A program made the translations under genes and the position numbers. The notes below the pieces were generated by a model, which was not told the origin of the DNA, did no database searches, and saw nothing but the letters and a program-made list of their open reading frames with translations. 52,418 nucleotides of DNA, from IMG/VR virus record IMGVR_UViG_3300029319_009278, positions 1 through 52,418 of that record; one strand, written 5' to 3'. This document shows, piece by piece, positions 38,851 through 52,418 of the stretch. The stretch comes from a virus. Numbering within the stretch: the first letter of the stretch is position 1; each line of letters starts with the position of its first letter.

Positions 38851-39151
38851 CTTCTGCCTCCTCTTCGACAGGGAGGACTTGTTCATCGTCTATGTCAAAA
38901 AGATCTTTATAAACTTGGACCTCTTCCTTTATGTCTTTGGTGTGTCTAATCAAACCCTCAAGCGTAGAGTCTCCATAAAAGACGGGCAACTCATACACTG
39001 AAGTTAGGTGTTCCTCGTATTCTTGCATCGCCGAGAAAAAATAGTTTGTAGTGTTTGATATCTTATTGAACCTTATCAAAAGCTCCCTAATGTACCAAAC
39101 AAAAAACAAATTCACAAGGATGCTCCCTGTTAGTAAAAAGTACCAAATCAT
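38843..39151 (-). CDS. Small single-pass membrane protein, unknown function
   Basis: 102 residues. Residues 2-20 (IWYFLLTGSILVNLFFVWY) form one membrane helix with Arg following, so the acidic remainder is probably cytoplasmic. The segment VYELPVFYGDSTLEGLIRH is a pattern I associate with small proteins next to gp55 in T4-like marine phages. The end is strongly acidic (EEEAEDG). Its start overlaps the upstream zinc-ribbon gene as ATGA, and its end overlaps gp55 by 8 bases. Function unknown. Confidence 0.8.
   Translation of the reverse strand: MIWYFLLTGSILVNLFFVWYIRELLIRFNKISNTTNYFFSAMQEYEEHLTSVYELPVFYGDSTLEGLIRHTKDIKEEVQVYKDLFDIDDEQVLPVEEEAEDG
38857..38863 (-). promoter_or_regulatory. Shine-Dalgarno site deciding the gp55 start
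   Basis: GAGGAGG on the minus strand, 6 bases from ATG 38850. No comparable site precedes the longer start at 38886. Confidence 0.8.
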
Positions 39152-39408
39152 TTCTTAGTCCTTTTTTTGTATTTGTTTTTTTCTTTCTTAATCTCTTCTT
39201 TTGCTTCTTTGATGCTATCGTTGACAACTTTGCCAGTTTTTTGTTTTGAGTCAGTCTTCTTCTTCGTAACAATTTTTATTGGATTATTGTATGTCCTAGA
39301 AGGATTTTTAGCTTTACAAAGAATGCACTCTTTTAACTTATCTTTGTAAGAATGCCTGGCGTCAAAGTTTTCTTTGCACTCGGTGCAAAAGTAAGAGTAG
39401 AGACCCAC
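39148..39408 (-). CDS. Small zinc-ribbon protein (FmdB-like N-terminus)
   Basis: 86 residues with a GTG start (reads VGLYSYFCTECKENFDARHS). Two CxxC pairs, CTEC and CILC, about 20 residues apart form a zinc ribbon like the FmdB/'putative regulatory' family. The second half is lysine-rich (KKKTDSKQKTG onward), so nucleic-acid contact is likely. GAGG lies about 7 bases before the GTG. Its start overlaps the stop of the 68-residue gene (TAGTG). It may be a transcription or polymerase-associated factor in the late regulatory region; not proven. Confidence 0.8.
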   Translation of the reverse strand: MGLYSYFCTECKENFDARHSYKDKLKECILCKAKNPSRTYNNPIKIVTKKKTDSKQKTGKVVNDSIKEAKEEIKKEKNKYKKRTKK

Positions 39409-39614
39409 TACTCAACCTCGAACTTTGGTGTTTCTGTGTTAAACGAAAACGTTGGCGGATTTGATACAAAAATCTCCTCGTTTTCAACACGAAGATTCCA
39501 ATCCGCTAGTAGTTCTGTAATGTCTGTCTCTTCAGCCAAACATTTTTGCAATGTCATAAGAAGTGTCCCAATCGCTTGTTGGGAAAGTTTCAATCCAGTT
39601 TGTTCGTTAGTCAT
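39408..39614 (-). CDS. Small conserved phage protein, unknown function
   Basis: 68 residues (MTNEQTGLKLSQQAIGTLLM start). The pattern 'LxQxAxxxLxxxLQKCL...TDITELLADWxLxVE' then VSNPPTF recalls a small family common in T4-like marine phages, by memory. One helical half and one strand-rich half, no metal motif. It overlaps the sugar-cassette HAD gene by 8 bases at its start and the zinc-ribbon gene at its end, so it is the junction gene between the two modules. Confidence 0.78.
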   Translation of the reverse strand: MTNEQTGLKLSQQAIGTLLMTLQKCLAEETDITELLADWNLRVENEEIFVSNPPTFSFNTETPKFEVE

Positions 39615-39921
39615 TTTTTGTTTCCTCCCTAAAGAAATTATCTGTATTTATTGCTTTATCGCAGATAAAAAGGTCATATGGTGGTTTCCACATTTTGATT
39701 TCGTGGTGTTTAGCGCCCCATTCATGTATTTGTTTGTGAGTCAACTCTGTCCAATCAATCCCTGTTGTCCCACCACGAGCGGTCCAGTATACAATCGTGT
39801 TACCTTCGTCATAAAGTTTATTTATTTTTTCTATATTTTTCACTATTGGCACAGCAGATGGATAATGCCGTTCCCCTTCGTATGTACAAATGGTATCATC
39901 AATATCTACATAAATTAACAT
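39607..39921 (-). CDS. Small HAD-family phosphatase of the sugar cassette
   Basis: 104 residues from ATG 39921 (MLIYVDIDDTICTYEGERHY). Motif I is D6-I-D8-D9-T10. The later segment around WKPPYDLFICDKAIN fits the C-terminal HAD aspartate. A longer frame to 39978 exists, but CTCC at 39929-39932 (GGAG on the minus strand) lies 7 bases from ATG 39921 and the shorter start begins right at the HAD strand. It lies one base after the nucleotidyltransferase stop. HAD proteins of this size in capsule/LPS loci act on sugar phosphates; it may be a sugar-1-phosphate phosphatase. It is much shorter than GmhB. Confidence 0.82.
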   Translation of the reverse strand: MLIYVDIDDTICTYEGERHYPSAVPIVKNIEKINKLYDEGNTIVYWTARGGTTGIDWTELTHKQIHEWGAKHHEIKMWKPPYDLFICDKAINTDNFFREETKND

Positions 39922-39922
39922 T

Positions 39923-40309
39923 TTAACGCTCCAAAACGCTTGTTGTTGAATATTTTGGTATTCTATCAAAAAAAACAACCTGTTTAGAGTGCTGTGATCC
40001 TACAACTTCCCTATCTCGGTAGTCAGAGCCAACAACCAAATAATCAGGGCTGTATTCTTCTATTGTGTCCTCTAAATGCTGTTTTGATGAAAAACACACA
40101 ACCTTGTCAACATACTTTATAGACTCTAAAAGGAACTTTCGGTCCTTTACAGTATTAAAAGGACGGGAAGGTCCCTTATCCTTTTTGACCTTACTGTCTG
40201 TATCAATACCCACAATCAAAATATCACCAAGAGATTTAGCATACTTTAACATCTCAATGTGCCCTCTATGCAAAACATCAAAACAACCATTTGTCCAAAC
40301 AGTAATCAT
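39923..40309 (-). CDS. Cytidylyltransferase-family sugar nucleotidyltransferase (HldE C-terminal domain-like)
   Basis: 128 residues. The start TNGCFDVLHRGHIEMLKYAK is the classic nucleotidyltransferase opening with HxGH at residues 14-17, as in the HldE/RfaE2 domain. That domain transfers AMP to D-glycero-beta-D-manno-heptose 1-phosphate, giving ADP-heptose. Here it is a stand-alone gene next to a PfkB kinase of the HldE N-terminal type (ATGA overlap), so the two functions of HldE are encoded separately. The end (YSTTSVLER) is slightly shorter than in HldE. Glycerol-phosphate or other sugar-phosphate substrates remain possible. Confidence 0.85.
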   Translation of the reverse strand: MITVWTNGCFDVLHRGHIEMLKYAKSLGDILIVGIDTDSKVKKDKGPSRPFNTVKDRKFLLESIKYVDKVVCFSSKQHLEDTIEEYSPDYLVVGSDYRDREVVGSQHSKQVVFFDRIPKYSTTSVLER

Positions 40310-41052
40310 ACTATACTAACACCTCTCTTTTGAACAACCTTTGTTGCACAAGCGTTGGCAAACTGAATTGCTTTTTCGATGCTGCTTGTCTTCACATACT
40401 CTGACACCAGGGCTGCTATGTAAGTGTCGCCGGCCCCAGAACTATCTTTGATCTCGACATGATCAACTGGATATGTTCTCTCATTGTATTTTGATCCTTT
40501 TGAACCAAGGGTAACGATTAGCTTACTATCAAGAACCTCTGTTATCAAGTGCTTTGTTCTCTCGTATTCATAAGAATTAATCTTAATGTACTTAAGATCA
40601 TTACACCATTCTCCCAAAAGTTTTTTTGTATCAAGAAACACACTTTCATGTGAAAGAGAAATTTGTCTTATATCGTCTTCGGTCAGAAAACCCTTACAGT
40701 AATCAGAAACAATAATTGCTGAATACTCTGATAAATCTGCTGATTTAAACTTTTCTTGGTCAAACTTATTTTCAACTTTATCACGCAAATCTATGCGCAA
40801 AAACATGTGGTTCGTTCTAGAATCAATATATCTCGTTTTTGTTGATTCTTCCCAGTTATCGTTTGTTATGATGTCACAACTAACCCCTAAAGATTCAATA
40901 TTACGAACAACGTTCATTGCCATCCCTGGATTCTGTACTGTACGAGTAGGGTTGAGGATTGGCGCAGGGGCGTCAGGACACAAACGCTCGCAATTGCCGT
41001 AGCAAAAAACATCTGTACAACTCTCACCAATAACCAGCACCTTCTTGCTCAT
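40306..41052 (-). CDS. PfkB-family sugar kinase (HldE N-terminal domain-like)
   Basis: 248 residues, shorter than the usual 310-320 of the HldE kinase domain. Motifs: RLCPDAPAPILNP (residues 23-35, the RfaE-type opening), VSDYCKGFLT (115-124, equivalent to the SDYGKG motif) and DSSGAGDT (203-210) with catalytic D209. The family phosphorylates heptose 7-phosphate at O1 using ATP. It overlaps both neighbours by ATGA. Together with the nucleotidyltransferase it could make a nucleotide-activated heptose, or a related hexose. The short length suggests a lost loop or a different substrate. Confidence 0.85.
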   Translation of the reverse strand: MSKKVLVIGESCTDVFCYGNCERLCPDAPAPILNPTRTVQNPGMAMNVVRNIESLGVSCDIITNDNWEESTKTRYIDSRTNHMFLRIDLRDKVENKFDQEKFKSADLSEYSAIIVSDYCKGFLTEDDIRQISLSHESVFLDTKKLLGEWCNDLKYIKINSYEYERTKHLITEVLDSKLIVTLGSKGSKYNERTYPVDHVEIKDSSGAGDTYIAALVSEYVKTSSIEKAIQFANACATKVVQKRGVSIV

Positions 41053-42056
41053 CTTGTTAAAAATCTTCCGCCAGATGACACTCTGTCTCTCCAGTAATTC
41101 AAGAGATCATTCATTGTTTTTTCAAAAGGTATTTCAGGTTCCCAGCCAGTATGGTTTTTAAATTTTTTCGTGTCTGGGACTTGGAGGTCTGCATCAATTG
41201 GTCTTAATCTTGCCGGGTCTGTTTCGACCTTTATATCTTTTACGGTTGACTGGCTTACCAAATAGTCCAACATCTCTTTTACAGTGCAAGTATATGATCC
41301 ACCAATGTTGTAATACTCTCCCGCAACAGGATCTTTAGTTACCAAAAGATAATAAGCCCTAACAGCATCTCTTACATCTGACCATGTTCTTAAGGAGTCT
41401 AAATTTCCAACCTTTATTACTGGAGGGATTAGCCCATTTTCTATCATCGCTATTTGTTTGGCAAAGGTCGATTCAGCAAAAACGTCTCCTCTTCTCGGTC
41501 CCGTGTGAGTGAACATGCGGGTGGTCATAATTGTCATCTCGTATGCTTCGGCATAATATCGACCAATTAAATCTGTTCCTACTTTCGATATTGCGTAAGG
41601 TGACGCTGGGTGAAATTTTACTTCTTCATGAATGGGTAAGAATTCTTTTGGCACTCTTCCAAAAACTTCCGACGAAGCACAGACATGAATTACGGGATTT
41701 GCTTCTGATCTCTTAATCGCTTCCAGTAATTTAGCTGTGCCAATTATATTAGTTTCAAGCGTTTCTAGTGGTGCTACAAAACTAGTTTGTGGGTAGCTTT
41801 GGGCAGCTAGATGAAAAACATATTCAGGCTTTGATTCTTCTACAGCACTCAACAGAGAAGCCAGATCATTTAAATCGCCATAGACGAGTTGTATCCTATC
41901 CTCTTTATTTATTTCTTCCGCAAGGTGAGATACATTCTCCAAAGAATCGTTCCAGCGACAAAACCCATATATTTTCCAATCAGTGTTCTCTAAAATATAA
42001 TCAGCAAGGTGAGATCCAACCATGCCAGTTATTCCTGTTATTAAAACATTGGTCAT
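41049..42056 (-). CDS. gmd: GDP-mannose 4,6-dehydratase-family enzyme
   Basis: 335 residues from ATG 42056 (the frame's first codon upstream is TTG). Rossmann motif GITGMVGSHLAD, active-site S-S-E (residues in CASSEVFGRV), and Y-x3-K in SPYAISK, with HTGPRRGDVFAE after it. The C-terminus has the family ending TGWEPEIPFEKTMNDLLNYW. Gmd removes water from GDP-mannose to form the 4-keto-6-deoxy sugar, the entry to fucose, colitose and perosamine. Related enzymes act on GDP-heptose. Overlap with the dioxygenase gene is TGATG, with AGGAG upstream. The substrate is inferred from family. Confidence 0.85.
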   Translation of the reverse strand: MTNVLITGITGMVGSHLADYILENTDWKIYGFCRWNDSLENVSHLAEEINKEDRIQLVYGDLNDLASLLSAVEESKPEYVFHLAAQSYPQTSFVAPLETLETNIIGTAKLLEAIKRSEANPVIHVCASSEVFGRVPKEFLPIHEEVKFHPASPYAISKVGTDLIGRYYAEAYEMTIMTTRMFTHTGPRRGDVFAESTFAKQIAMIENGLIPPVIKVGNLDSLRTWSDVRDAVRAYYLLVTKDPVAGEYYNIGGSYTCTVKEMLDYLVSQSTVKDIKVETDPARLRPIDADLQVPDTKKFKNHTGWEPEIPFEKTMNDLLNYWRDRVSSGGRFLTR

Positions 42057-42844
42057 CAAACAAAATCTCCTGAATCATAACGGTCTAATAACTCTCTTCG
42101 TGCCGTCCACCCAGGCCAGAAAGGTTCCTTTTCCTTAATATAGACGGCATAAATAGTTCTTCTCCACTTTGTGGGGTGATTGTTTTTAAAAGCTTTATGC
42201 AGCAGGAGACCATGTACAACCAAAACATCCCCAGCTTCGTACTCCAGTTGGAGAGTTTCTAGATCATCAGAGAGTTTGTTGCCTTCTGGATCCGTGTAAT
42301 CACTTAAATTTTCTGCGTCGCCGATAGGAGCACTTTGGTACAAGTTTCCGTCTTCATCTCTAGAGAAATTAGGAGTCGGCTCAAACTTCAACATGCCGAA
42401 CTTATGACTACCAGGGACCACAATCAAGGATCCATTTGTTTCATCAGCATCATCCACAATAAGCGCCAAGTTTAGGTAATTGCCGCCGTTTGGTGCCATT
42501 GGTGCAAAGTTATCTTGATGCCAAATTGACCCAAGCTCTAGAGGATTATTTGGCTTGCAAAAAAACGTTGTACTGCTAATTGGTATTGCTCTGCCGCCAC
42601 ATATTGCATCAGCTATGTCACACATTTTTTTACCACGATGAGCATCTTTAACACTACCGTGGTGATGGATATCTAATCTGACTGTAAAGTGACCCTCGGC
42701 CGCTTTATCCATATCACGCCTTATAACGTCAACATCTTCTTTTGTCCAGACATTCTTTAGTAAAAGATATCCATTTTCATTAAAAAAGTTTAGATCTTCT
42801 TCGGTAACAGAATAAGAGTCCATATGTGTTTTTAATTCGTTCAT
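42056..42844 (-). CDS. PhyH-type Fe(II)/2-oxoglutarate dioxygenase
   Basis: 262 residues. Metal ligands are visible: H109-x-D111 (IWHQDN) and the distal H216 (LLLHKAF), with the 2-oxoglutarate arginine R228 or R229 (TKWRRT). The family hydroxylates aliphatic carbons using Fe(II) and 2-oxoglutarate. The N-terminus (about 12-30: VTEEDLNFFNENGYLLLKN) is the typical PhyH start. It lies inside the sugar cassette, overlapping neighbours on both sides, so a sugar, lipid or small-molecule substrate connected to the cell surface is likely. AAGGAG precedes the start. Substrate unknown. Confidence 0.85.
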   Translation of the reverse strand: MNELKTHMDSYSVTEEDLNFFNENGYLLLKNVWTKEDVDVIRRDMDKAAEGHFTVRLDIHHHGSVKDAHRGKKMCDIADAICGGRAIPISSTTFFCKPNNPLELGSIWHQDNFAPMAPNGGNYLNLALIVDDADETNGSLIVVPGSHKFGMLKFEPTPNFSRDEDGNLYQSAPIGDAENLSDYTDPEGNKLSDDLETLQLEYEAGDVLVVHGLLLHKAFKNNHPTKWRRTIYAVYIKEKEPFWPGWTARRELLDRYDSGDFV

Positions 42845-43791
42845 TCCATATTCTCCTTATACCATTTTAGTGTTTCTAATAGTCCGCTCTCAAGGCTATA
42901 TGAAGGCTCCCATCCAAGCTTTTCTTTGGCATAAGAGCAATCTAGGTACAAGGAGGTTGGCACTGTTGGTTTCGACAAATCGTGGACGATTTCCAAATCT
43001 TTACCGGAGCACTCAATAACCTTCCTTACAAGATCTTTAATTTTTATTTTCTCACCAAGACCAACATTAAACAATTCGTATTTCTCTTCTTGGTTTTGTA
43101 AAGCGGACTCAACAAACAAGACCAAATCTTTGATATACAAAAGATCTCGTGCTTCTTCACCCGTACCCCAAACGTTTACTTTACCATCTTCCGACGTCAT
43201 TACTTTTGTAATTGTCGCCCCTGTTACGTGTGACTTTTCAAGATCATACTTATCGTGCGGACCATACATGTTTGAGTGCCTTATTACAGTATGTTTTGTT
43301 TTTCCAAAGCCAGCATAAAATTCGCACATCTTTTCTAAATAAATTTTTGTATGCCCCGCCCCAAAATAGAAAGGAAGCAAATCATCAGATGGATTAAAGT
43401 CTGTTTCTTTAAGCGCATTCTCTGATTTTTGGTACATTATAGTGCAACTAGGGAAGACAAAGTGTTCTATACCTTGTTCAAAAGCCTCTCGGAGAAGAAG
43501 AGAATTCATTACAGCGTTATCAGTTACGTGAATATATGGTTTAGAAACGATGTCTTTAGCCCCTGTTGTCGTTGCCGCAAATTGAAATACTATATCTACA
43601 TCCGTTAAGACGTCCCTGACCTCTTCAGGATTTCTTAAATCACACTTGACCCATTCCACTTCACCATAGCCAGGAACAGGGTTCCTCTTGAAATGAGTAG
43701 CTCTTATAGTATATTTTGGGTTCTTGGAAAAATGATCCAATAAGTTTTTTCCAATAAATCCAGTGGCTCCGCAGATTAAAATCTTTTTCAT
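42841..43791 (-). CDS. NAD-dependent epimerase/dehydratase, GDP-fucose synthase-like, atypical Tyr position
   Basis: 316 residues. Rossmann motif GATGFIGKNLLD, active-site PSCTIMY, and HSNMYGPHDKYD. It resembles GDP-fucose synthase/epimerase-reductases. Instead of a clean YxxxK, the site reads PFYFGAGHTK: the tyrosine is seven residues before the lysine rather than four. I checked the DNA for this. Either a different alignment places the acid, or the catalysis is altered. The C-terminal half ends in the family's LGWEPSYSLESGLLETLKWY. It probably acts in the last steps of nucleotide-sugar synthesis. Overlaps neighbours by ATGA. Confidence 0.8.
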   Translation of the reverse strand: MKKILICGATGFIGKNLLDHFSKNPKYTIRATHFKRNPVPGYGEVEWVKCDLRNPEEVRDVLTDVDIVFQFAATTTGAKDIVSKPYIHVTDNAVMNSLLLREAFEQGIEHFVFPSCTIMYQKSENALKETDFNPSDDLLPFYFGAGHTKIYLEKMCEFYAGFGKTKHTVIRHSNMYGPHDKYDLEKSHVTGATITKVMTSEDGKVNVWGTGEEARDLLYIKDLVLFVESALQNQEEKYELFNVGLGEKIKIKDLVRKVIECSGKDLEIVHDLSKPTVPTSLYLDCSYAKEKLGWEPSYSLESGLLETLKWYKENME

Positions 43792-44372
43792 TTTGGTCTT
43801 CCATCTATAACTAAATCGCTTTCACCATTTTTCATAGCTGTATATATCTTATTCACAACAACATCAACATCCATAGCATTTTGTCTATCGGGCGTTGTTT
43901 TTATGTTTGTAGGGTAAACATCCAAAATATGTAAATTTTCTTTTTCGCTCTTTAGGCTATTTGAGAAACCTCTTAATCCCCACTTTGTTGCTGAATATAA
44001 TGTTCTTGGGGACTTTACTTCTAATCCCACCATTGAATTTATGTTTATAACAGATTCTAAAACTGGAAGCAACTCCTGTGTTAGAAAAATAGGGGCGATT
44101 AGATTTACTTTAACCATATCTTCTATTTTCTCTCTGGAATATTCTTCGAATGGTATACTAGGGCAAACAATGGCGGCATTGTTCACAAGAACATTTACAC
44201 CCCATTCTTTAGCTTCTTGACATAAGTTTACAATATCATCCTTTTTTCGTAAATCAAAATGATTACTTCCTTGGTGTGAAAATACCTCATACCCCTCATT
44301 GACAAATTTTTTTACTAGCGAAACGCCGAGTCCAGAGTTCGCACCAGTTATTAAAACCTTACCCAAAGACAT
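43788..44372 (-). CDS. Short-chain dehydrogenase/reductase
   Basis: 194 residues, shorter than the usual 240-260. It has TGANSGLG (cofactor), NNAAI, a serine at SMVGL, and YSATK (Y-x3-K). Classical SDRs reduce ketones with NAD(P)H; here it probably reduces a sugar ketone or aldehyde. The C-terminal substrate region is short. It overlaps the epimerase by ATGA at its end and the upstream gene by 14 bases at its start, so it belongs to the same operon. Substrate unknown. Confidence 0.83.
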   Translation of the reverse strand: MSLGKVLITGANSGLGVSLVKKFVNEGYEVFSHQGSNHFDLRKKDDIVNLCQEAKEWGVNVLVNNAAIVCPSIPFEEYSREKIEDMVKVNLIAPIFLTQELLPVLESVININSMVGLEVKSPRTLYSATKWGLRGFSNSLKSEKENLHILDVYPTNIKTTPDRQNAMDVDVVVNKIYTAMKNGESDLVIDGRPK

Positions 44373-45327
44373 TGTAACGCTTATCCACTATATTTTTGTG
44401 CTGCTCAAACCACTCTATGGTCTCCAGAATTCCTTGTCTTATTGAAATTGAGGGCTCAAATCCATACGATCTAGCTCGCTCCATATCAAAAACACGCCGT
44501 GGATCACCAGCAGGACCATCTGTAAGCCACTTTATTTCTTTATTATATCTTTCAGCTATGACCTCTGCGATTTCTTTGATTTTCACACCGGACCCGCTGC
44601 CCAAGTTTATCGGCTCTGTTATTTTATTCTTAACTGCGTGTAACATTCCGAGAGCAACGTCTCTTGCATGAATAAAGTCTCTAACAGGGCTACCATCGCC
44701 CCAAACTTCTAACTCACTATTTTCAGAAGCTTTCCTTATAAGTGATGGGATAACCATGGCATTTTTTGGATCAAAGTTATCATAAGGTCCATAGACATTT
44801 GCAGGGCGAACGATAGAACACTTACCTTCACCGAACTGTACCTTATAAGCTTCGCACTGGAGTTCTCCCATTCTTTTTGCCCAGCCGCCATACCAGTCGT
44901 TTCTTGAAGGCTGTGTTTTCCAAACTGCGTCTTCGTACAGAACTTCTGCGGGCTCATAAACGCCGACCGTGCTTGTATACAAATACCACTCCACGCCCTC
45001 GCCCATTGCTGCTTCCAGCATGTTTGTATTAAACTGCAACATTGGACCCATAATGGTGGCCGGCTTTTCTAGGCATATTTTTGGTGATGCTTTTATTCCT
45101 ACAAGATTAAAAACGTATTCCATGCCTTTGCAGATATCTCTACAGCTTGAATACTCTTTTAGGTCAACTTTGCAAAACTCTATCTTATCGGACATGTTAA
45201 TTGGTTCATTCAGATCAGCCACTCTTACAGTGGCACCTTCCTCAATTAACATATCAACTAGCTGGCGTCCTATCATTCCGCTACCACCAGTTACTAGAAC
45301 TTTCTTATTCTTAAAATCAACAGTCAT
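44359..45327 (-). CDS. NAD-dependent epimerase, GDP-fucose/colitose synthase-like
   Basis: 322 residues with GGSGMIGRQLVD, TSTVGVYE and RPANVYGPYDNFDPK. The tyrosine and lysine read WYGGWAKR, a spacing of five, so the YxxxK is again shifted by one, possibly by an inserted Gly. The C-terminal part GSGSGVKIKEIAEVIAERYN fits GDP-fucose synthase-like reductases. It overlaps the ColD-like gene by 11 bases, which supports a role right after ColD (ColC-like: C5 epimerisation and C4 reduction). GAGG lies about 9 bases before the start. The exact reaction is not proven. Confidence 0.8.
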   Translation of the reverse strand: MTVDFKNKKVLVTGGSGMIGRQLVDMLIEEGATVRVADLNEPINMSDKIEFCKVDLKEYSSCRDICKGMEYVFNLVGIKASPKICLEKPATIMGPMLQFNTNMLEAAMGEGVEWYLYTSTVGVYEPAEVLYEDAVWKTQPSRNDWYGGWAKRMGELQCEAYKVQFGEGKCSIVRPANVYGPYDNFDPKNAMVIPSLIRKASENSELEVWGDGSPVRDFIHARDVALGMLHAVKNKITEPINLGSGSGVKIKEIAEVIAERYNKEIKWLTDGPAGDPRRVFDMERARSYGFEPSISIRQGILETIEWFEQHKNIVDKRYNVFG

Positions 45328-46480
45328 TTAGAGCCTCACATAGAGATTTTATTTGTTCCTCTGTCAGTTCTGTATGGTTTCCAATGTACAAGCCATAATC
45401 ATGAATATGATTAGCCACATCTAGACTTCCAAGTATTCTATACTCATATTTTTCCAAGTAAGGTTGACGAGCCTGGTTTCCGCCTCCGGCTGTTCCAATT
45501 CTATATTCTACTGATTGTTTTTCTAAAGTGTTGCACACTCTCTGGAAAAGATCTTTATCCTTGTCCGCTAAAACCAAAGGTAAAGCAAAACTACTATTAC
45601 CTTCAAGATTATAGCCTGTAAAATATCTTTCTTGGTCAAGATTGTCAAGCCATACTTTCAGGTTTTCTGCCCTTTTTTCAACCGCAAAATCTAATTTGTT
45701 TATCTGCTCTAGTCCAAGCACTGCATTAAACTCTGTATTTCTTAAGTTGTAGCCTGGTACAGCAAAAGTGAAAAGAGGATTTAGGTCTGGGTAATTCGAG
45801 GCGTATTCATTTTTGTATTCTTCAGAAACCTCTCTAATCATGCCGTGAGACCGAAACATTTTTGCCAATTGATAAACACGCTCATCATTTGTACAGACAA
45901 CCCCTCCCTCAACTGTTGTTATATGGTGTCCAAAATAGAATGAGAAGTTAGACATAAGTCCAAAGTTACCTATTTTCACACCATTGTGAGTCGCTCCGTG
46001 TGACTCGCAACAATCCTCTATCAAAACTAGGTCTTTTTCTTTTGCTAGGTCTATAAGATCGTCTGTAAGGGCATCAAAACCAAGAGCGTGGACCAGTGTT
46101 ATTCCTATGGTTTTGTCATTTACCGCTGCTTTTATGTTCTCATAGGTTATTGCCATATTCTCTAAGTCTACATCAACAAAAACTGGCGTTAAGCCAAGAT
46201 TTACCAACGGAGCAATATCAGACACCCAGCCGATTGGTGGAACAATAACTTCGCCGCCACCCTTTAGCTCTTTCATAATGGATGCCATAATGTAATTTGC
46301 TGATGCACCTGAATTGACGAAAACTGTGTATTTCACACCAAGCCACTCTGACCATGCTTGTTCAAATTTCCGAACATACTTTGATTGTGTAAATCTAACA
46401 TCCGGTTCTTGAAGCCACTCAATCAAGACTTCTTTATCTCTTTGTGTTATATTGTCGTTAATCAACGGCCATTCATACAT
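45317..46480 (-). CDS. colD: ColD-like PLP sugar 3-dehydratase (Lys replaced by His)
   Basis: 387 residues from ATG 46480, with GAGGAAA upstream; the frame extends further but lacks that site. It is a DegT/DnrJ/EryC1 fold enzyme. Where aminotransferases carry the Schiff-base lysine (SxxxxK..TTxEGG), it reads FYFGHHITTVEGG with H185 in the lysine place. This is the hallmark of GDP-4-keto-6-deoxymannose 3-dehydratase (ColD, His188), and the length equals ColD (388). The C-terminal YIGNH also recalls ColD. The four iron-sulfur cysteines of the CDP-sugar enzyme E1 are not seen. Product: 3,6-dideoxy-4-keto sugar. Substrate is inference. Confidence 0.85.
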   Translation of the reverse strand: MYEWPLINDNITQRDKEVLIEWLQEPDVRFTQSKYVRKFEQAWSEWLGVKYTVFVNSGASANYIMASIMKELKGGGEVIVPPIGWVSDIAPLVNLGLTPVFVDVDLENMAITYENIKAAVNDKTIGITLVHALGFDALTDDLIDLAKEKDLVLIEDCCESHGATHNGVKIGNFGLMSNFSFYFGHHITTVEGGVVCTNDERVYQLAKMFRSHGMIREVSEEYKNEYASNYPDLNPLFTFAVPGYNLRNTEFNAVLGLEQINKLDFAVEKRAENLKVWLDNLDQERYFTGYNLEGNSSFALPLVLADKDKDLFQRVCNTLEKQSVEYRIGTAGGGNQARQPYLEKYEYRILGSLDVANHIHDYGLYIGNHTELTEEQIKSLCEALNDC

Positions 46481-46922
46481 ATGCTTTCCTCGCTTTCTCA
46501 AAATCATAATCATCAAATTCTACGTTGTAATTATCTTCATTCTCTGGGTGCCACGCTGGGTTACAGAGGTTTAATACCGCAGAGGTTTCTTCGGAAAGAT
46601 TTAATGTGGCTGAAGGTACATTAGCTGGCACTTCAACGACTACAGGATGATCTTCTGAAGATAAAAACTCACGGTACCCTTCTTTGGGGTCTTTAACAAT
46701 AATCAAGACCTTTCCTCTAATGCAAACAAAGTAGTCCCAACGTGTTTTGTGTAAATGAGGACCCTTTAACACTCCTGCATGATAAGTTGTAACATACGCC
46801 TCCATTGGCGGAAGCTCTCTTTGTCCCTCGTAGTGTTTCCATACAGAAATCAGCTTTCCGTTGATCTCTCCAGTCCGCTGGTCCCTGGTCTCTACACAAT
46901 AACGATCATATGTTTTTATCAT
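46473..46922 (-). CDS. RmlC-like cupin sugar epimerase
   Basis: 149 residues. A cupin with the dTDP-4-dehydrorhamnose 3,5-epimerase pattern: GVLKGPHLHKTRWDYFVCIR (compare GVLRGLHYQ), then GKVLIIVKDPKEGYREF and VEVPANVPSATLNLSEE. RmlC-type enzymes epimerise C3 and/or C5 of 4-keto sugars without metal. In modified-heptose pathways RmlC-like proteins work after a Gmd-like dehydratase. It overlaps the E1 beta gene by 17 bases and the ColD-like gene by 8. It is shorter than RmlC (about 180), so one-site epimerase activity is plausible. Could also be another WxcM-type cupin. Confidence 0.8.
   Translation of the reverse strand: MIKTYDRYCVETRDQRTGEINGKLISVWKHYEGQRELPPMEAYVTTYHAGVLKGPHLHKTRWDYFVCIRGKVLIIVKDPKEGYREFLSSEDHPVVVEVPANVPSATLNLSEETSAVLNLCNPAWHPENEDNYNVEFDDYDFEKARKAYV
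46485..46491 (-). promoter_or_regulatory. Shine-Dalgarno site deciding the ColD-like start
   Basis: GAGGAAA on the minus strand, 4 bases before ATG 46480. It favours the MYEWPLINDN start over the earlier frame start at 46516. Confidence 0.65.
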
Positions 46923-47826
46923 TATTAGAAATTCCTAACACTTTTTCAACAATCTTTTCTGCCGTTGGGGGCAGATTATCTACATCCGGATGAAATCCAG
47001 CAGTCCGGGGCTCAAGACCCATCACGTCCACAGGTTTACTAGTTTCCAACATCAACTCATGAGCCATAGGTCTGGCAACGCCATCCACATAATCATCGTC
47101 AAGAACTATGCCACCAAATTTTGATTGCAAAAGAATGTTTTTCCATTCGCTTTTTATAATATACGGCTTTAACCACAACTGATGTATTACGCTGACCTTG
47201 TATCCCTTCGTCGCTAAAATTTTACTGGCTTCTTGTGCAGCAAAACGAGTAATGGATATGGGAAATAAAACTATGTCTGGATCATCATGGATTATATCTG
47301 GGAGTTCCTCTGTATTGCCATAACTTCCTCTGTGTTCCGAAACATAAAATACATCGTCCTGGCTCATAAAATCTTTGTATATTTGTTTGTATTCCATCGG
47401 TGTCATCGGAGAAACAATCTTAACTCCAGGCATCCTGTAATACAAAGAATGATGTGAGGAGCTTGCAACAGGTCCGGTTCCTCCTTCCATGGCAATACTT
47501 CTAACAAATATTGGGCACGGTATTTTCCACAGTTCTTTTGATTTGCAGGCATAGTTTACTATCATAGGTGAATTGTACCAATTAAACCCCTGATACCTTA
47601 TAATGTACATTGGTCTTCTGCCAACCAGTCCAGACCCTACCACAATACCACCGCCGGCAACGTCTGCCATGGAAAGCTCAACCATGCCGTCTTCCTCATA
47701 GAGTTCCGGTAAAGTTCCTCCAACCCAACCAACAGCAGTCAAACACTGCCCAAACGCCAAGCCATTCTCTTTTGTAAGGTGGTGTCTTACAGTCTCTTTT
47801 ATTGTTTCTCTAACTGTCTTTGCCAT
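46906..47826 (-). CDS. E1 beta-type TPP-dependent enzyme subunit
   Basis: 306 residues. It matches the pyrimidine-binding/transketolase C domain pair of 2-oxoacid dehydrogenase E1 beta: AFGQCLTAVGWVGG, then ELSMADVAGGGIVVGSGLVG and EGGTGPVASSSHHSLYYRMP, with a C-terminal transketolase-C-like half from about 185. It pairs with the E1 alpha gene upstream, overlapping it by 28 bases. No E2/E3 genes are present, so it is unlikely to be a normal pyruvate dehydrogenase. Within a sugar cassette it may transfer a two-carbon unit, as proposed for branched sugars. Function is inference. Confidence 0.85.
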   Translation of the reverse strand: MAKTVRETIKETVRHHLTKENGLAFGQCLTAVGWVGGTLPELYEEDGMVELSMADVAGGGIVVGSGLVGRRPMYIIRYQGFNWYNSPMIVNYACKSKELWKIPCPIFVRSIAMEGGTGPVASSSHHSLYYRMPGVKIVSPMTPMEYKQIYKDFMSQDDVFYVSEHRGSYGNTEELPDIIHDDPDIVLFPISITRFAAQEASKILATKGYKVSVIHQLWLKPYIIKSEWKNILLQSKFGGIVLDDDYVDGVARPMAHELMLETSKPVDVMGLEPRTAGFHPDVDNLPPTAEKIVEKVLGISNNDKNI

Positions 47827-48632
47827 GTTTTTTCTATCATTTCCTTGGTCTCAAGATGTACATTCAAAGCCTCATCACCAAGCGAATCCATTTCTGTCTG
47901 ATATCTGTCAAACGTGTCATCAGAATCTTTTCCCGCTCCACTATGCCAGTAAAGACGATGAGTGTTAACATTTAGTAAAACTGGGACACTGAAAGCATCT
48001 GTTAAATGGCTGCGTATTTCCAGAGGGTCATCAGATGTTTGAGTCGCTTTCATTTTGAAAGCTTTAGCAACGTCATCCATTTCCCAGTTTCTTCTTACCT
48101 TCTTTTCTGTTAAAATTGATAGATTATTGTCCTCTACAACAAACAAGATCGGCAAGTTTTTTGTAGAAGCCCAACCAAGAGCACCTAAAACATAATCTTC
48201 TTCAGCGGAGGCATCTCCCATCACTGCAATCGTCGGATGATTCGAACTATAGGCTGCACCTACCGCAATCGGTACCTGGCTTCCCATTAGTCCGTCGTGA
48301 CCATACATATTAATTTCTGGTCCGTGTACCGACGCCGAACCTCCCATGCCATAAGCACAGCCCGATGGTCTACCCAATAATTCATCTATTAATTTAACAA
48401 GGTCGCCACCAAAAGAAAGATACAAAGAGTGACACCTGTGTTGTCCAAATATCATCGGACTCATGTCTCCAAGAACAGTAGCGATAGTGGCCGAAATATA
48501 TTCTTGCCCCGCCGACATATATGTTGGAAACTTTATGTTTTTTTCTTCGATCATTTTGTAGAGATAATTTTCAAAGTTTCTACACATGGAAGCTTTCTTA
48601 AAAACCTCCATTCTAAAATCTCTGTCATTCAT
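47799..48632 (-). CDS. E1 alpha-type TPP-dependent enzyme subunit
   Basis: 277 residues from ATG 48632 (MNDRDFRMEVFKKASM). The TPP motif reads GDASAEEDYVLGALGWASTK then VVEDNN: GDA in place of the usual GDG, with the NN end about 30 residues later. The E1-alpha phosphorylation-loop region, here around NTHRLYWHSGAGKDSDD, also fits. The start with a GGAAAG site at 7 bases is preferred over the longer frame; it overlaps the HAD gene by 8 bases. It forms a heterotetramer with E1 beta, by family. It may decarboxylate a keto acid and pass the activated aldehyde to a sugar. Confidence 0.83.
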   Translation of the reverse strand: MNDRDFRMEVFKKASMCRNFENYLYKMIEEKNIKFPTYMSAGQEYISATIATVLGDMSPMIFGQHRCHSLYLSFGGDLVKLIDELLGRPSGCAYGMGGSASVHGPEINMYGHDGLMGSQVPIAVGAAYSSNHPTIAVMGDASAEEDYVLGALGWASTKNLPILFVVEDNNLSILTEKKVRRNWEMDDVAKAFKMKATQTSDDPLEIRSHLTDAFSVPVLLNVNTHRLYWHSGAGKDSDDTFDRYQTEMDSLGDEALNVHLETKEMIEKTWQRQLEKQ

Positions 48633-49095
48633 AAAAAACTTTCCAATCCACAACAGAGCTACTATCGTGACTTGTTATGCCGCTTATTTTTTGCGCACTT
48701 TTTAAATGCTTCTCGTCGTCATCATAAAACACACATTGACTTATTTTGTCAAGTACATTAGCTTTAGAAAAGGTTTTATATTTAAGGATTTTATTTTCTC
48801 CAAACAACTCGTAAATACCAAATTGTTTAAGCAAATTTATTGACGGCTGGTCTTTTTCTTCTAGTCCCCATGCCGCCCCAACAGATAGAAACCCGATCTC
48901 GTTTCCCTGGGAAATCAAATATTCGATATAGTTGGAAATATTTTTTCGCAAAACACAGCGTGACCCAACGTCATCAAATATTACATTACCCTCTTTTCGG
49001 TACGGTCGTAACATTTGTTTAGCCCAAATAGGGCGACCAGTTACATCATATGTGTCCCAAATTGTTCTATCTAAATCAAAAATATGCAATGTCAT
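48625..49095 (-). CDS. HAD phosphatase (MDP-1/HAD-IIIC-like)
   Basis: 156 residues. Motif I is IFDLDRTIWD (DxDxT), as in the MDP-1/FkbH-type HAD IIIC group, and the late acidic motif is VFYDDDEKHL. A serine is at FLSVG for motif II. The family hydrolyses phosphate esters; in sugar gene clusters such proteins often act on sugar phosphates or glyceryl-ACP intermediates. It overlaps the cupin gene by ATGA at its start and E1 alpha by 8 bases at its end. Substrate unknown. Confidence 0.8.
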   Translation of the reverse strand: MTLHIFDLDRTIWDTYDVTGRPIWAKQMLRPYRKEGNVIFDDVGSRCVLRKNISNYIEYLISQGNEIGFLSVGAAWGLEEKDQPSINLLKQFGIYELFGENKILKYKTFSKANVLDKISQCVFYDDDEKHLKSAQKISGITSHDSSSVVDWKVFYE

Positions 49096-49751
49096 TTTGA
49101 CACGACCAACAACAACGAATCTTTGACAATTTCGAAGTCTTTTGACAACTGCTTAAACACTTTGCCAACGACCACATCACCAGGCTGATATATCGGATCC
49201 TTCTTATCGCTAATGAGTCCTCCCCTGAAACACATCAAAAGGTCATCATCTAAAAACTCATTAGGATCTGTCTTTGTTGAAAGTTTTTTTAGGTCCATCT
49301 GCTTGCCACAGAAAACAAAAGAATCATTTTTGTAGTCATCATCTTTCAGAAAGAGACAATCTTCATCCCTTTCCATCTCCGATTCTTTACCCTCATAAGG
49401 CTTGGACTTTCTTCCGTACTCATCCTTCAGACGAACTAGATCATCTTTCATTTTTGGTGCTTCTATCTCAAACATATAAACACCATTTTCTGATACGGCT
49501 TTTGTTGAGTGAAACAACCCTCTTCTGATCATCATCTTATCAGGAGATTCAACCATAAATGAATCATTAAGAAACGATATTTTTGCTGTGCCATCAAGGA
49601 CGATAAGTCCTGTGTTTTTTCTCGGGTGACAATGCATCGAAGTTCGTTGTCCCGGCTCTATCCTTAACAGCCAAAGACCTACATCATCATTTTCATACAC
49701 AAGGTATTCATGTCCCCATGGTTTTTTGACAACTACGTTTTCATAGGACAT
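49092..49751 (-). CDS. Cupin protein, sugar-phosphate isomerase-like
   Basis: 219 residues. The N-terminal cupin contains KKPWGHEYLVYENDDVGLWL and then PGQRTSMHCHPRKNTGLIVL with the H-x-H metal pair (MHCH), as in type II mannose-6-phosphate isomerases. A long acidic insertion (about 110-150) and a C-terminal region (GDVVVGKVFKQLSKD) follow. It is thus larger than a bare cupin. It may be an isomerase or a binding protein for sugar phosphates feeding GDP-mannose. It overlaps the HAD gene by ATGA. A regulatory role is possible. Confidence 0.72.
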   Translation of the reverse strand: MSYENVVVKKPWGHEYLVYENDDVGLWLLRIEPGQRTSMHCHPRKNTGLIVLDGTAKISFLNDSFMVESPDKMMIRRGLFHSTKAVSENGVYMFEIEAPKMKDDLVRLKDEYGRKSKPYEGKESEMERDEDCLFLKDDDYKNDSFVFCGKQMDLKKLSTKTDPNEFLDDDLLMCFRGGLISDKKDPIYQPGDVVVGKVFKQLSKDFEIVKDSLLLVVSK

Positions 49752-49759
49752 TTTTTATT

Positions 49760-50311
49760 TTATCCTCGGTATCCGTCCGACGATTCATTGTAAGTTTCTA
49801 TCGATGTCTTCATCCATGGCCCCATCCACTTGTAGTGCGGGGAAGAAATAACATTGCCAGACCTAACTGCCGGTGCATCAACATATACAGCACCAGCATT
49901 ATTAATATCATCCTTGATACTATAATATCCTGAAATTTCTCTTCCTTCTACAATTCCAGACGAAATTAAAAGCTGGGCTCCGTGGCACGTACTAGCAATA
50001 ACTTTGCCTCTCTTGTTCCACTCGTTAACAAAACGAAGAACCTGCTCTTCTTGCCTCAACTTTTCAAGCGCCTTTACGCCGCCTGGGATGACAAGAAAAT
50101 CATACTCATTCATGATTTGTTTAAATCCATCAGCACTGTTCAATTCGTCAGTTGTTCTAGAACTTTCCATGTTCGTGCCAAGAATACCATAGATTCTTCC
50201 TGTCACGTTCGCCATAATATCTACTTGAAAACCTTCCTCGTCAAGTCTATAATATGGGTAGATAACCTCGTGGTCTTGAAACTTTTCCCAAGTAATAATT
50301 AAAGCTTTCAT
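49760..50311 (-). CDS. DJ-1/PfpI-family protein
   Basis: 183 residues. The nucleophile elbow is ASTCHGAQLL with C109 followed by H110, and E15 lies at the place of the family's conserved glutamate. The C-terminal SSPHYKWMGPWM is the YhbO/PfpI-type ending. The family includes deglycases and chaperones that remove early glycation products, and some proteases. Beside sugar-aldehyde-producing enzymes a deglycase-like or aldehyde-handling role would make sense. It overlaps the next gene (50308) by ATGA. Function is inferred from fold. Confidence 0.82.
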   Translation of the reverse strand: MKALIITWEKFQDHEVIYPYYRLDEEGFQVDIMANVTGRIYGILGTNMESSRTTDELNSADGFKQIMNEYDFLVIPGGVKALEKLRQEEQVLRFVNEWNKRGKVIASTCHGAQLLISSGIVEGREISGYYSIKDDINNAGAVYVDAPAVRSGNVISSPHYKWMGPWMKTSIETYNESSDGYRG

Positions 50312-50727
50312 TTTTTCTCCTTATTATTCCAGCTTATTTCCCAATCTTTAAAATCAGCAGCCAAGCAGTCTATTTTGTAATCTTTTCTGCCGCCAGCAAT
50401 TTCTTGTATTTTGTTTTTAGCAGTGTTTCTAATCCCATTCAATCCATGGGTCAGTTCAAGATTGTTGCCATCTTTTATGCCTTTTCTATAGTTCGACTCG
50501 TTGTGCCAAATGTGTAAATTCATCTGCGATAAAACAACAATAGCCCTAACGACATCACCGCTGACACTGTTTGAGTTGGATAGAAGAGTATCTATATCAT
50601 GAACAATATCCTCTATTTCTTGAGCATATTCTTTCTTGTGTTCGGGAATAAAAACTTCTTTCAATTGTACAATCGACAACCTGTCAATTAACTCTGATAG
50701 TGTTGGTAGGTATTTTCTATCTGTCAT
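50308..50727 (-). CDS. Small conserved polysaccharide-locus protein, unknown function
   Basis: 139 residues. The opening YLPTLSELIDRLSIVQLKEV and the MNLHIWHNESNYRKG segment resemble a small helical family that I have seen beside glycosyltransferases in polysaccharide loci. The protein is mostly helical with several aromatic and His residues (HNES, HGLNG). No catalytic motif is clear. GGAG lies 6 bases before ATG 50727, and the end overlaps the PfpI gene by ATGA. It may be a glycosyltransferase helper or an uncharacterised sugar enzyme. Confidence 0.72.
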   Translation of the reverse strand: MTDRKYLPTLSELIDRLSIVQLKEVFIPEHKKEYAQEIEDIVHDIDTLLSNSNSVSGDVVRAIVVLSQMNLHIWHNESNYRKGIKDGNNLELTHGLNGIRNTAKNKIQEIAGGRKDYKIDCLAADFKDWEISWNNKEKK

Positions 50728-50766
50728 GAGGACTCCATTAAAAGTATAGACTAAAAATGATTTTTA

Positions 50767-51711
50767 TTAAGAAAGATTAAGGTTTTTTTTGATAACTGCA
50801 AAAAGATTATCGTCTGAATCGAAAAAACTCTCTGCTCTTTTCAGGTTATCTTTTACTGCCTCCAGTTTTTGATGATATAAATCTGGGCTGATCGATTCTA
50901 AAATATCTAATAGCTCTGGCCCTGTATCAAATGACAGAATTCCATCTGTATTAAAGAAATCACCAATATTTGGACAGCCCCAAAATACGGGAATTGTCCC
51001 AAGTCTAAAGCAGTCTACAAGATTGTCATTGAAATAGTTTTCATGTTTTGCATTTGTTATACTCAAGGAAAAGTAGTATTGCCCTAGTGGATCCATTTTA
51101 TAATCAAAAGACTTGTAAGCTCGACCCCAAAGATCAACATCCAAATTCCTTTTTGTTATTAGATTATCGACAATCAAGTGTCGCAATTTGTGTCCTCTAG
51201 CTAACTTTGATATCTCTATATCTTTCCCTTTTTTGGAAATTATTATTGAAGCTAGTTTGCTTTTCTTTTGTATTTTACAGTCTTCCTTGTGTATAGATCC
51301 TCCGGCATGAACAGTCTTATAAAAAACATATTTTGGACCTCTGTTCAACAAGTCTTTATCATATGTAAGGATTAGATCAAATTTATCCTCTACCATTGTT
51401 ATCCACTCATAAGCAAACGGATGTATAGATCGACACTCATTTAAAAGAGCAACCTTATATTTTGTATTTACCTGATCTGTCATTGGAGACAATAAGTCTT
51501 TGTCGGAAAAAATTGTTACTTCAACATCTTCTTCTGGTAGTCTATTTAATGGCTTTAAAGACTCTGGCTGTATTCCGCCGCCGTAGACCCATTCCACATT
51601 TTTTGGCTCTGGGTGGAACTCTGTCGGGGAAAAAGAGTAGTATCCCATTTCCTCGTTGTAGTTCTCCTTGGATATCAAACTACAATAAAAGTTAACTTTA
51701 GTTCTAGTCAC
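50767..51711 (-). CDS. GT10 fucosyltransferase-like glycosyltransferase
   Basis: 314 residues with a GTG start. The C-terminal half (about 212-245) carries the GT10 alpha-1,3/4-fucosyltransferase core: YYFSLSITNAKHENYFNDNL, then RLGTIPVFWGCPNIGDFF (compare FxLxFENS...YITEK...G.VPVYxG). GT10 enzymes move fucose from GDP-fucose onto glycans; a colitose or other GDP-deoxy sugar donor is plausible here. The N-terminal half is the acceptor Rossmann domain. The usual E in the motif is D/N-rich. It is the only glycosyltransferase seen. The GTG overlaps the cupin stop (8 bases); the ribosome site is weak. Confidence 0.83.
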   Translation of the reverse strand: MTRTKVNFYCSLISKENYNEEMGYYSFSPTEFHPEPKNVEWVYGGGIQPESLKPLNRLPEEDVEVTIFSDKDLLSPMTDQVNTKYKVALLNECRSIHPFAYEWITMVEDKFDLILTYDKDLLNRGPKYVFYKTVHAGGSIHKEDCKIQKKSKLASIIISKKGKDIEISKLARGHKLRHLIVDNLITKRNLDVDLWGRAYKSFDYKMDPLGQYYFSLSITNAKHENYFNDNLVDCFRLGTIPVFWGCPNIGDFFNTDGILSFDTGPELLDILESISPDLYHQKLEAVKDNLKRAESFFDSDDNLFAVIKKNLNLS

Positions 51712-52069
51712 CTTTCACGACCCTATAACTGTCACTGTCAAAATGCTGCGTTGAGAATTCAAAAAGTTCTGAATCCTCTAGAGCAATCATCTGATGTCTT
51801 AACCCTCGGTAGACCCAGAAGTTTTCTCCGGCATTTAGAATAAGCTCACTTGCTTCCTCTAGGTTGTCATCATCACCATACTTAATCAACATTTTTCCTG
51901 ATTGCAGGTAAAAGACTTCATCCTTTAGCTTATGGTAGTGCCAAGAGCACCGCTTATCTTTGTTGAAAAACAGTAGCTTGCCGCAATACTCTTCCTTGTT
52001 GACAATCCACCTTTCCCAGCCCCAACCTTTATCTACGTGTTGCATTTGTAAAATACTTTTGTTTACCAT
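51704..52069 (-). CDS. Cupin protein, mannose-6-phosphate isomerase type II-like
   Basis: 121 residues, a single cupin. GWGWERWIV opens it, then NKDKRCSWHYHKLKDEVFYL carries H-x-H (WHYH) and a Glu ligand, and ENFWVYRGLRHQMIALED closes the barrel with another His. The pattern fits the C-terminal isomerase domain of ManC/WcbM-type proteins or free sugar cupins. It may interconvert mannose and fructose phosphates, which would feed GDP-mannose, or isomerise a keto sugar. It overlaps the SDR gene by 7 bases and the GT10 gene by 8. Confidence 0.78.
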   Translation of the reverse strand: MVNKSILQMQHVDKGWGWERWIVNKEEYCGKLLFFNKDKRCSWHYHKLKDEVFYLQSGKMLIKYGDDDNLEEASELILNAGENFWVYRGLRHQMIALEDSELFEFSTQHFDSDSYRVVKGD

Positions 52070-52418
52070 ACTGTCTTTCCCCCATCGATAACCATGTTTT
52101 CACCAGTCATGTACGTGCTAGCATCCGAACACAAAAACGCAATCGCACCCTTATATTCATCAATGTGAGCCATGCGACCCATTGGGATAATACTAGACAA
52201 CTTCTTTACAAAATCCTCTGGGTGGTCATTGAACACTCCGGTGGGACTTAAGCAGTTTACTCTAATGTTTTTATTTGCAAAATAAACGGCCAAGTATTTT
52301 GTCATACCAACAATAGCCCATTTTGCTGCTGAATATGTGATTGGTTTGACATTTTGCATGTCTTCCGCAACATCGGGCTTTCTATAAATTCTTTGATCGG
52401 GAGCAATGACCCCAAGAT
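52063..52418 (-). CDS. Short-chain dehydrogenase (5' end cut by window edge)
   Basis: The minus-strand frame runs past the Met at 52359 to the edge with no stop: upstream codons give LGVIAPDQRIYRKPDV before the catalytic block PITYSAAKWAIVGMTKYLAV (Y-x3-K). So the true start lies outside the window and the visible 118 residues are the C-terminal half. RVNCLSPTGVFN and DGGKTVW are the usual late SDR motifs. The visible 'VIAPDQRIY' segment is typical of SDRs in nonulosonic or other surface-sugar loci. It reduces or oxidises a sugar intermediate with NAD(P)H; substrate unknown. Confidence 0.85.
   Translation of the reverse strand, partial: LGVIAPDQRIYRKPDVAEDMQNVKPITYSAAKWAIVGMTKYLAVYFANKNIRVNCLSPTGVFNDHPEDFVKKLSSIIPMGRMAHIDEYKGAIAFLCSDASTYMTGENMVIDGGKTVW

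Follow-up and report, generated by a model that had tools for sequence, protein, structure and literature searches.

The 52,418-nucleotide stretch of viral DNA analysed here (the window) comprises bases 1-52,418 of the IMG/VR record IMGVR_UViG_3300029319_009278, which is 66,148 bases long and comes from a large T4-like virus, not in culture, that infects aquatic bacteria. From position 39,607 to its end it carries nineteen minus-strand genes, all open, collinear and mostly overlapping or abutting, which an initial annotation had described as a sugar-synthesis and transfer cassette ending at 52418. The gene set stands as described; its extent does not. The window stops there merely because the contig does, a 10-N scaffold gap beginning at base 52,419, and the sugar genes continue to record base 65,624, making about 34 genes in 26.0 kb with some 15 of them beyond the window. 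The window's sugar genes make up the downstream portion of a glycan-biosynthesis island of 26 kb, which in a clade of T4-like aquatic phages occupies a fixed site and combines a modular content with constant borders.

The record holds two such gaps (52,419-52,428 and 63,125-63,134; 2420-2429 and 13126-13135 in the coordinates of L002), and genes span both, the first being crossed by a short-chain dehydrogenase/reductase (SDR) gene and the second by a gene for a glycosyltransferase (GT) of family GT4. At its far end the island meets a phage PD-(D/E)XK exonuclease gene (record 65554-66147, PHROG exonuclease match). At the other end come small genes, a sigma-like gene, a protein with an endolysin domain and then baseplate wedge proteins. 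The first of the small phage genes is joined to the cassette by an 8-base overlap, as had been noted initially (39607-39978 and 39408-39614 share 39607-39614). A Pfam scan of 18 of the 19 genes placed 16 over the cut-off for sugar, cofactor or nucleotide-sugar families; the two without a Pfam family over the cut-off were 39607-39978, which has a PHROG match instead, and 50308-50727, with a weak match to DUF7783. Pfam, NCBIfam and PDB matches bear out the GT10, Gmd-like, ColD-like and E1 alpha/beta assignments as well as the kinase and nucleotidyltransferase halves of HldE, while the gene called RmlC-like is actually a cupin of the FdtA/WxcM type. Rfam gave no match within the window and no tRNA was found in the rest of the record (L002). 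The features, in window coordinates unless stated otherwise, are as follows.

35615-37828, minus strand: flanking phage protein of 737 amino acids of which only the C-terminal third carries an endolysin-type peptidase domain (PHROG endolysin, 2e-30)
38161-38886, minus strand: likely gp55-like sigma factor, right border of the island (AlphaFold2 fold; 268 viral relatives)
38843-39151, minus strand: border gene g102, with one N-terminal membrane segment (21 of 24 islands by clustering)
39148-39408, minus strand: border gene with a zinc ribbon (Pfam Zn_ribbon_8, 3.5e-5, below cut-off; 18 of 24 islands)
39408-39614, minus strand: border gene g68 (about 50-80% identity in many relatives)
39607-39978, minus strand: HAD-type phosphatase, probably of the heptose pathway (PHROG 1238, named phosphoheptose isomerase, 3.8e-28; likely ATG start at 39921)
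39923-40309, minus strand: HldE-C-like nucleotidyltransferase (Pfam CTP_transf_like, 2e-21)
40306-41052, minus strand: HldE-N-like PfkB sugar kinase (Pfam PfkB, 5e-21; best NCBIfam rfaE_dom_I, 1.7e-33, below cut-off)
41049-42059, minus strand: GDP-mannose 4,6-dehydratase-like (Pfam 3e-76; best NCBIfam gmd, below cut-off)
42056-42844, minus strand: PhyH-family iron/2-oxoglutarate (Fe/2OG) oxygenase (Pfam 4e-21)
42841-43791, minus strand: Fcl-like nucleoside diphosphate (NDP)-sugar epimerase/reductase (Pfam 8e-37; NCBIfam Fcl 8e-34, below cut-off)
43788-44372, minus strand: short-chain dehydrogenase (Pfam adh_short, 9e-27)
44359-45327, minus strand: NDP-sugar epimerase (Pfam 2e-45)
45317-46516, minus strand: ColD-type pyridoxal phosphate (PLP) 3-dehydratase with His for Lys, FGHHITT (best PDB match ColD, 6e-61; residue check)
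46473-46922, minus strand: FdtA/WxcM-type cupin (Pfam 1.5e-9)
46906-47826, minus strand: E1-beta-like thiamine diphosphate (ThDP) subunit with Asp55 at the catalytic-Glu position (pyruvate dehydrogenase (PDH) E1 beta, 3e-7)
47799-48653, minus strand: E1-alpha-like ThDP subunit, overlapping the beta gene by 28 nt (Pfam E1_dh, 4e-19; PDH E1 alpha, 1.6e-14)
48625-49095, minus strand: HAD phosphatase (Pfam Acid_PPase, 1e-6)
49092-49751, minus strand: cupin of the mannose-6-phosphate isomerase C-terminal type, E1 module member (Pfam 2e-8; synteny)
49760-50311, minus strand: DJ-1/PfpI protein, E1 module member (Pfam 2e-34; synteny)
50308-50727, minus strand: conserved small protein, weak DUF7783 (77-86% identity across phages)
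50767-51711, minus strand: GT10 glycosyltransferase (Pfam 27.6 bits, over cut-off)
51704-52069, minus strand: sugar-isomerase-type cupin (Pfam Cupin_2, 1.8e-6; mostly 71-100% identity in relatives)
52063-52418, minus strand: SDR oxidoreductase, cut by the window end and running on across the N gap (read by eye)
Outside the window, record 52876-65624: TIM-barrel isomerase, glyoxalase, methyltransferase, class III aminotransferase, NeuA-like, NeuB, MptE-like (GT42-like by predicted fold), RmlB-like, RfbH, second epimerase, GT2, unassigned GT-like protein, small open reading frame (ORF) and two GT4

The small protein at 50308-50727 is conserved above nearly all cassette enzymes and co-occurs with the HldE-like kinase.

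Searches with the sigma-like protein gave 268 viral relatives, 80 of which were kept, and those with E1 alpha gave 31. When the window's proteins were mapped on the loci of these relatives, the same borders recurred with changing contents. In 30 records both borders were located where present and the islands extracted, giving a set of 24, the window's own and 23 others; G015 was excluded because both borders matched only weakly there, at a distance of 52 kb, and G005 because its gene order and length match those of G007. All 24 islands have the PD-(D/E)XK exonuclease and the GT4 genes at one end and the small genes with the gp55-like sigma gene at the other. They span 4.0 to 28.7 kb, and with thresholds of 35% identity and 60% coverage their genes cluster into 178 families, of which 79 have a single member. 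GT4a occurs in every island and GT4b in 23, and the smallest island consists of the two GT4 genes and one further gene. Homologous anchored islands are also present in two cultured phages, Microcystis phage Mel-JY01 and Flavobacterium phage immuto; in the latter the order PD-(D/E)XK, GT, GT is followed by about ten sugar genes, with the sigma gene about 18 kb farther along. No cultured phage matched the cassette in a Megablast search. The initial annotation had proposed looking for the cassette in related phage contigs, and its site does recur there; instead of the one dedicated pathway then envisaged, the site appears to accommodate an island of exchangeable content that serves several sugars (branched 3,6-dideoxy, heptose-like and CMP-nonulosonate). 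In G006, G011, G013, G022, G023, G027 and G028 (L121-L153), a homologue of Mpo1-like dioxygenase (c22, Pfam 7e-31) is always accompanied by an epimerase (c21).

Since the gene order recurs in dozens of independent contigs it is far beyond chance. The same recurrence bears on the idea, named at the outset as one that would overturn the phage assignment, that the segment is host DNA or an assembly chimera. The two 10-N scaffold gaps of the record might be taken in its favour, but both lie outside the window, phage genes flank the island on either side and the same layout is found in many contigs from different metagenomes, so that we consider this explanation practically negligible.

The sigma-like protein that marks the right border has no sequence match in Pfam, PHROG or the PDB, a profile search of PDB sequences included. 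An AlphaFold2 model built from 15 relatives (predicted local distance difference test, pLDDT, 76) gave only weak Foldseek matches, the best of them mostly sigma factors, while VIA-align placed T4 gp55 on top (7d7c_F; Z 10.2, root-mean-square deviation 6.7 over 118). The other VIA-align rows shown are nearly all sigma chains, which carries moderate weight for a helical model. The gene is thus likely gp55-like, as had been proposed, on the strength of its predicted fold, that of sigma region 2, and not of a sequence match. The T4 late promoter motif TATAAATA was found four times against 3.8 expected and never in the cassette; a divergent sigma factor may use another motif. With the motif at chance level, late transcription of the island can only be inferred. 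Between 36000 and 52418 we counted 21 terminator-like sites where 11.4 were expected, many of them on the plus strand and antisense to the cassette.

Phage clusters of the lipopolysaccharide (LPS) type have long been without a function and genomic filler was a serious option for them, as discussed for the cyanophage clusters (PMC3037559). The same could be supposed of the present cassette, as filler or as a recent functionless capture from the host, and the E1-beta tree described below, with its changes between phage and cell, would be compatible with capture. However, DNA identity between islands is mostly 65-75%, and in 110 gene pairs the mean identity at codon positions one, two and three is 69, 79 and 41%, with the third position the least conserved in every pair. 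Saturated third and conserved second positions mean that the shared genes have been maintained; they are under purifying selection and have long been kept as proteins. In addition, module order is conserved across divergent phages and the G+C content of the cassette (0.36-0.41) is not distinct from that of the remainder. The pattern of long-term selection refutes filler for the shared genes, singletons lying outside the comparison, and for the cassette as a whole we regard it as highly improbable.

The island contains no lipoyl E2 or E3 domain by Pfam, and the E1 alpha and beta genes stand alone. A role of the pair as pyruvate dehydrogenase in energy metabolism was rejected, as E2 and E3 are lacking and the scores fall below the PDH cut-offs. 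The two genes usually overlap by exactly 28 nt (31 phage loci) and are adjoined by the DJ-1 and cupin genes. A scan of cellular genomes gave 66 E1 loci, including ones in SAR11, SAR116, 'Thiothrix' single cells, betaproteobacteria, Omnitrophota, the candidate phyla radiation (CPR) and Nanoarchaeota, and many have the same DJ-1/cupin/E1 alpha/E1 beta module among sugar genes (L159-L224). In SAR11 the pair is rare (4 of 60 genomes). Aspartate occupies the position of the catalytic glutamate of PDH E1 beta in all 96 sequences compared, 32 from phages and 64 from cells (residue 55 in the window), and E1 alpha keeps the GD...N motif and the active-site histidine. On the E1-beta tree no fewer than three switches between the labels phage and cell are needed, which makes repeated transfer of the gene between the two probable; the copy in the window clusters with four others from phages, next to a SAR11/SAR116/beta clade (moderate support). 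Judged from these sequences, E1 alpha/beta is a distinct ThDP family that is linked to His-type dehydratases in phages and cells alike, and the cellular module is apparently an undescribed branched-sugar module. Through the Asp-type family, SAR11 and further uncultured cells would be expected to make branched sugars that have yet to be described.

The dehydratases in question are DegT enzymes. That encoded at 45317-46516 is, among solved DegT enzymes, closest to ColD (6e-61), with histidine replacing the PLP lysine. The second, beyond the window, passes the NCBIfam cut-off for RfbH (450.6 bits against 423), also has histidine at the lysine position (PAHHMTM) and keeps the four Fe-S cysteines, C-X57-C-X1-C-X13-C. 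Both the ColD and the RfbH types are 3-dehydratases. Distinct DegT sequences of E1-bearing phage loci have histidine in 31 cases and lysine in none, as opposed to 16 and 7 in E1-less loci (p = 0.0014). The DegT enzymes of cellular E1 loci divide into 38 with histidine and 4 with lysine, against 24 with histidine, 67 with lysine and one with arginine for DegT genes sampled from SAR11 (Fisher 1e-12). Within the 24 islands, a His-type dehydratase is present in 10 of the 13 that carry a ThDP carboligase and in none of the 11 that do not (p = 1.5e-4).

These carboligases are not always of the window's type. G001, G010, G020 and G021 have a ColD-type gene and no window-type E1 pair, a different and shorter E1-like pair lying two genes away; in the first three, a YerE/AHAS-like enzyme (best PDB match 8rph, then 5ahk) is found three genes from RfbH, and other sister islands contain a split transketolase. 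The three types belong to the same three superfamilies that were reviewed in 2025 as known or proposed branchers of keto sugars, namely decarboxylases of the YerE type, alphaKADH2 and transketolases (PMC12247030). The alphaKADH2 enzymes add C2 units, an activity shown in vitro for KbDH-alpha/beta (PMC12247030), and antibiotic pathways provide precedents in AviB1/B2 and Pau11/12 (PMC4425429, PMC4753412). The His-type dehydratases and their linkage to ThDP enzymes favour the deoxy or branched sugar suggested by the initial annotation, whose view of a phage-resident pathway cassette is also supported; more specifically, the pairing predicts a C2-branched 3,6-dideoxy sugar as the product. In G001 (L114:4625-7480) the YerE/AHAS-like gene is directly followed by PanB (ketopantoate hydroxymethyltransferase, over the NCBIfam cut-off), a hint that this phage may modify its 2-oxo acid donor as well.

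A further arm of the island concerns nonulosonates. NeuB and NeuA adjoin an MptE-like gene, and across the 24 islands neither NeuA nor the MptE-like gene is found without the other. The best fold match of the MptE-like model (pLDDT 73) is the GT42 sialyltransferase CstII (E 1e-4). This protein was also considered as a Maf-type protein glycosyltransferase; as the fold search put CstII first and showed no Maf, the gene was dropped as evidence for a protein acceptor.

Taken together, the best reading of the gene linkage is that soluble enzymes produce C2-branched 3,6-dideoxy sugars and CMP-nonulosonate. The Gmd-like enzyme would make GDP-4-keto-6-deoxymannose, from which the ColD-type enzyme would remove the 3-hydroxyl, the SDR/epimerase and PhyH enzymes finishing the branch. 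In a second arm RmlB and RfbH would make another 3,6-dideoxy sugar. NeuB, NeuA and the GT42-like transferase would make and transfer the nonulosonate, and the HldE-like halves together with the HAD enzyme a heptose-type donor. A core would be built by the soluble GT4 pair, and GT10, GT2 and other transferases would add variable tips to it.

Where such glycans would end up is suggested by what the islands lack. None of the 578 forward-strand proteins of the 24 islands is a polytopic membrane protein by a crude hydropathy measure, each showing at most two marginal segments, which leaves no flippase, polymerase or transporter, ABC type included, of the kind that bacterial O-antigen and capsule loci carry. 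By analogy with the chloroviruses, this places decoration of the virion slightly ahead of a change of the envelope. The sugars would be carried on a virion protein, and related phages would differ by 'glyco-serotype'. In the structural region of the window two giant, unassigned minus-strand ORFs, 13879-25080 (3733 aa) and 28863-34661 (1932 aa), are possible decoration targets.

The island might instead remodel the host envelope (LPS or O-antigen) against superinfection, the phage transferases extending lipid-linked or LPS-core intermediates of the host that host flippases export. Such a role has been proposed for jumbo cyanophages (PMC7824862) and pelagimyophages (PMC7029224). It would agree with the sugar-gene neighbourhoods in which cellular relatives of the E1 module are located in SAR11, SAR116 and others, and with CstII as the closest solved fold of the MptE-like protein. 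CstII acts on lipooligosaccharide. On the other hand, lacking a flippase, polymerase, ABC transporter and initiating transferase, the island would be fully reliant on host export. Known serotype-converting phage modules of the gtrABC type carry membrane proteins, in contrast to the 578 proteins examined here. We consider envelope remodelling quite possible, though at somewhat less than even odds. A third acceptor would be the phage DNA itself, hypermodified with glycans against restriction, and phages have been reported to encode a variety of DNA glycosyltransferases (Pyle et al. 2024, cited through PMC12619734). However, no member of PF00303, the thymidylate synthase/hydroxymethylase family, was found in 14 records, seven of them of 169-191 kb. 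No DNA glycan is known, moreover, that matches the range of sugars in the island. DNA glycosylation therefore seems very unlikely.

We return to the reading of the region as a fixed-site, swappable glycan island with branched-sugar chemistry and a slight lean towards the virion, to which we assign a probability of roughly 0.6. Several points weigh against it. The substitution of Asp for Glu throughout the E1-beta family could mean that the activity or the reaction differs. No RfbI-type reductase for RfbH appears in the Pfam results for the island, although the host might supply one, and no carboligase adjoins the RfbH gene of the window's record. Three islands contain a split transketolase and no His-type dehydratase. 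The base rate for DegT residues was sampled from one bacterial family (SAR11), the GT42-like assignment comes from a predicted model with a pLDDT of 73, and the lean towards the virion from crude hydropathy and analogy, where host flippases could export the product. The most far-reaching version, a 'glyco-serotype' locus in which several C-branched 3,6-dideoxy sugars made with three ThDP classes, the Asp-type E1 included, are put on the phage's own virions, is tentative and in our view clearly less than an even bet. If the glycans are indeed on virions, these phages would have a serotype variation of their own.

Sugar and LPS clusters in marine T4-like phages are known (PMC3037559), in agreement with the initial annotation. 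The cyanophages P-SSM2, S-SSM7 and S-SM2 likewise encode many epimerases, cupins, PfkB kinases, nucleotidyltransferases and glycosyltransferases (PMC3037559; PMC7824862). Their clusters are located near hli03 or phoH and tRNAs, whereas the present island lies between the PD-(D/E)XK exonuclease and the gp55-like sigma gene and differs further by its constant borders, its near-empty versions and its pairs of ThDP carboligase and 3-dehydratase. The host recognition cluster of pelagimyophages is also a hypervariable, sugar-bearing island in T4-like marine phages (PMC7029224), but it lies in the VrlC-gp14 interval and carries tail fibres; the present island has another site, and no tail-fibre gene was recognised in it by Pfam. 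Chlorovirus capsid glycosylation offers a parallel in its own GMD, its mostly soluble transferases and its two universal core transferases accompanied by variable others (PMC5408694), the chloroviruses being eukaryotic viruses with scattered genes and solved glycans, and the island being known from its genes alone. The alphaKADH2 enzymes (AviB1/AviB2, Pau11/Pau12, KbDH-alpha/beta) resemble the window's E1 pair as stand-alone PDH-E1-like pairs in deoxy-sugar clusters with an adjoining producer of the keto sugar; they are known from actinobacterial antibiotic clusters, whereas the present family occurs in phages and in sugar loci of uncultured bacteria and archaea. Its Asp at the catalytic-Glu position may be a further difference. 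The yersiniose pathway (RfbH and YerE) shares the RfbH-type dehydrase and, in G001, G010 and G020, a YerE/AHAS-like enzyme, while the window's record pairs E1 with a ColD-type enzyme and shows no RfbI. Compared with these systems, three elements appear new: the defined borders, which make the locus a standing swap site like the bacterial O-antigen locus, the linkage of 3-dehydratases to three interchangeable ThDP classes, and the Asp-type E1 family.

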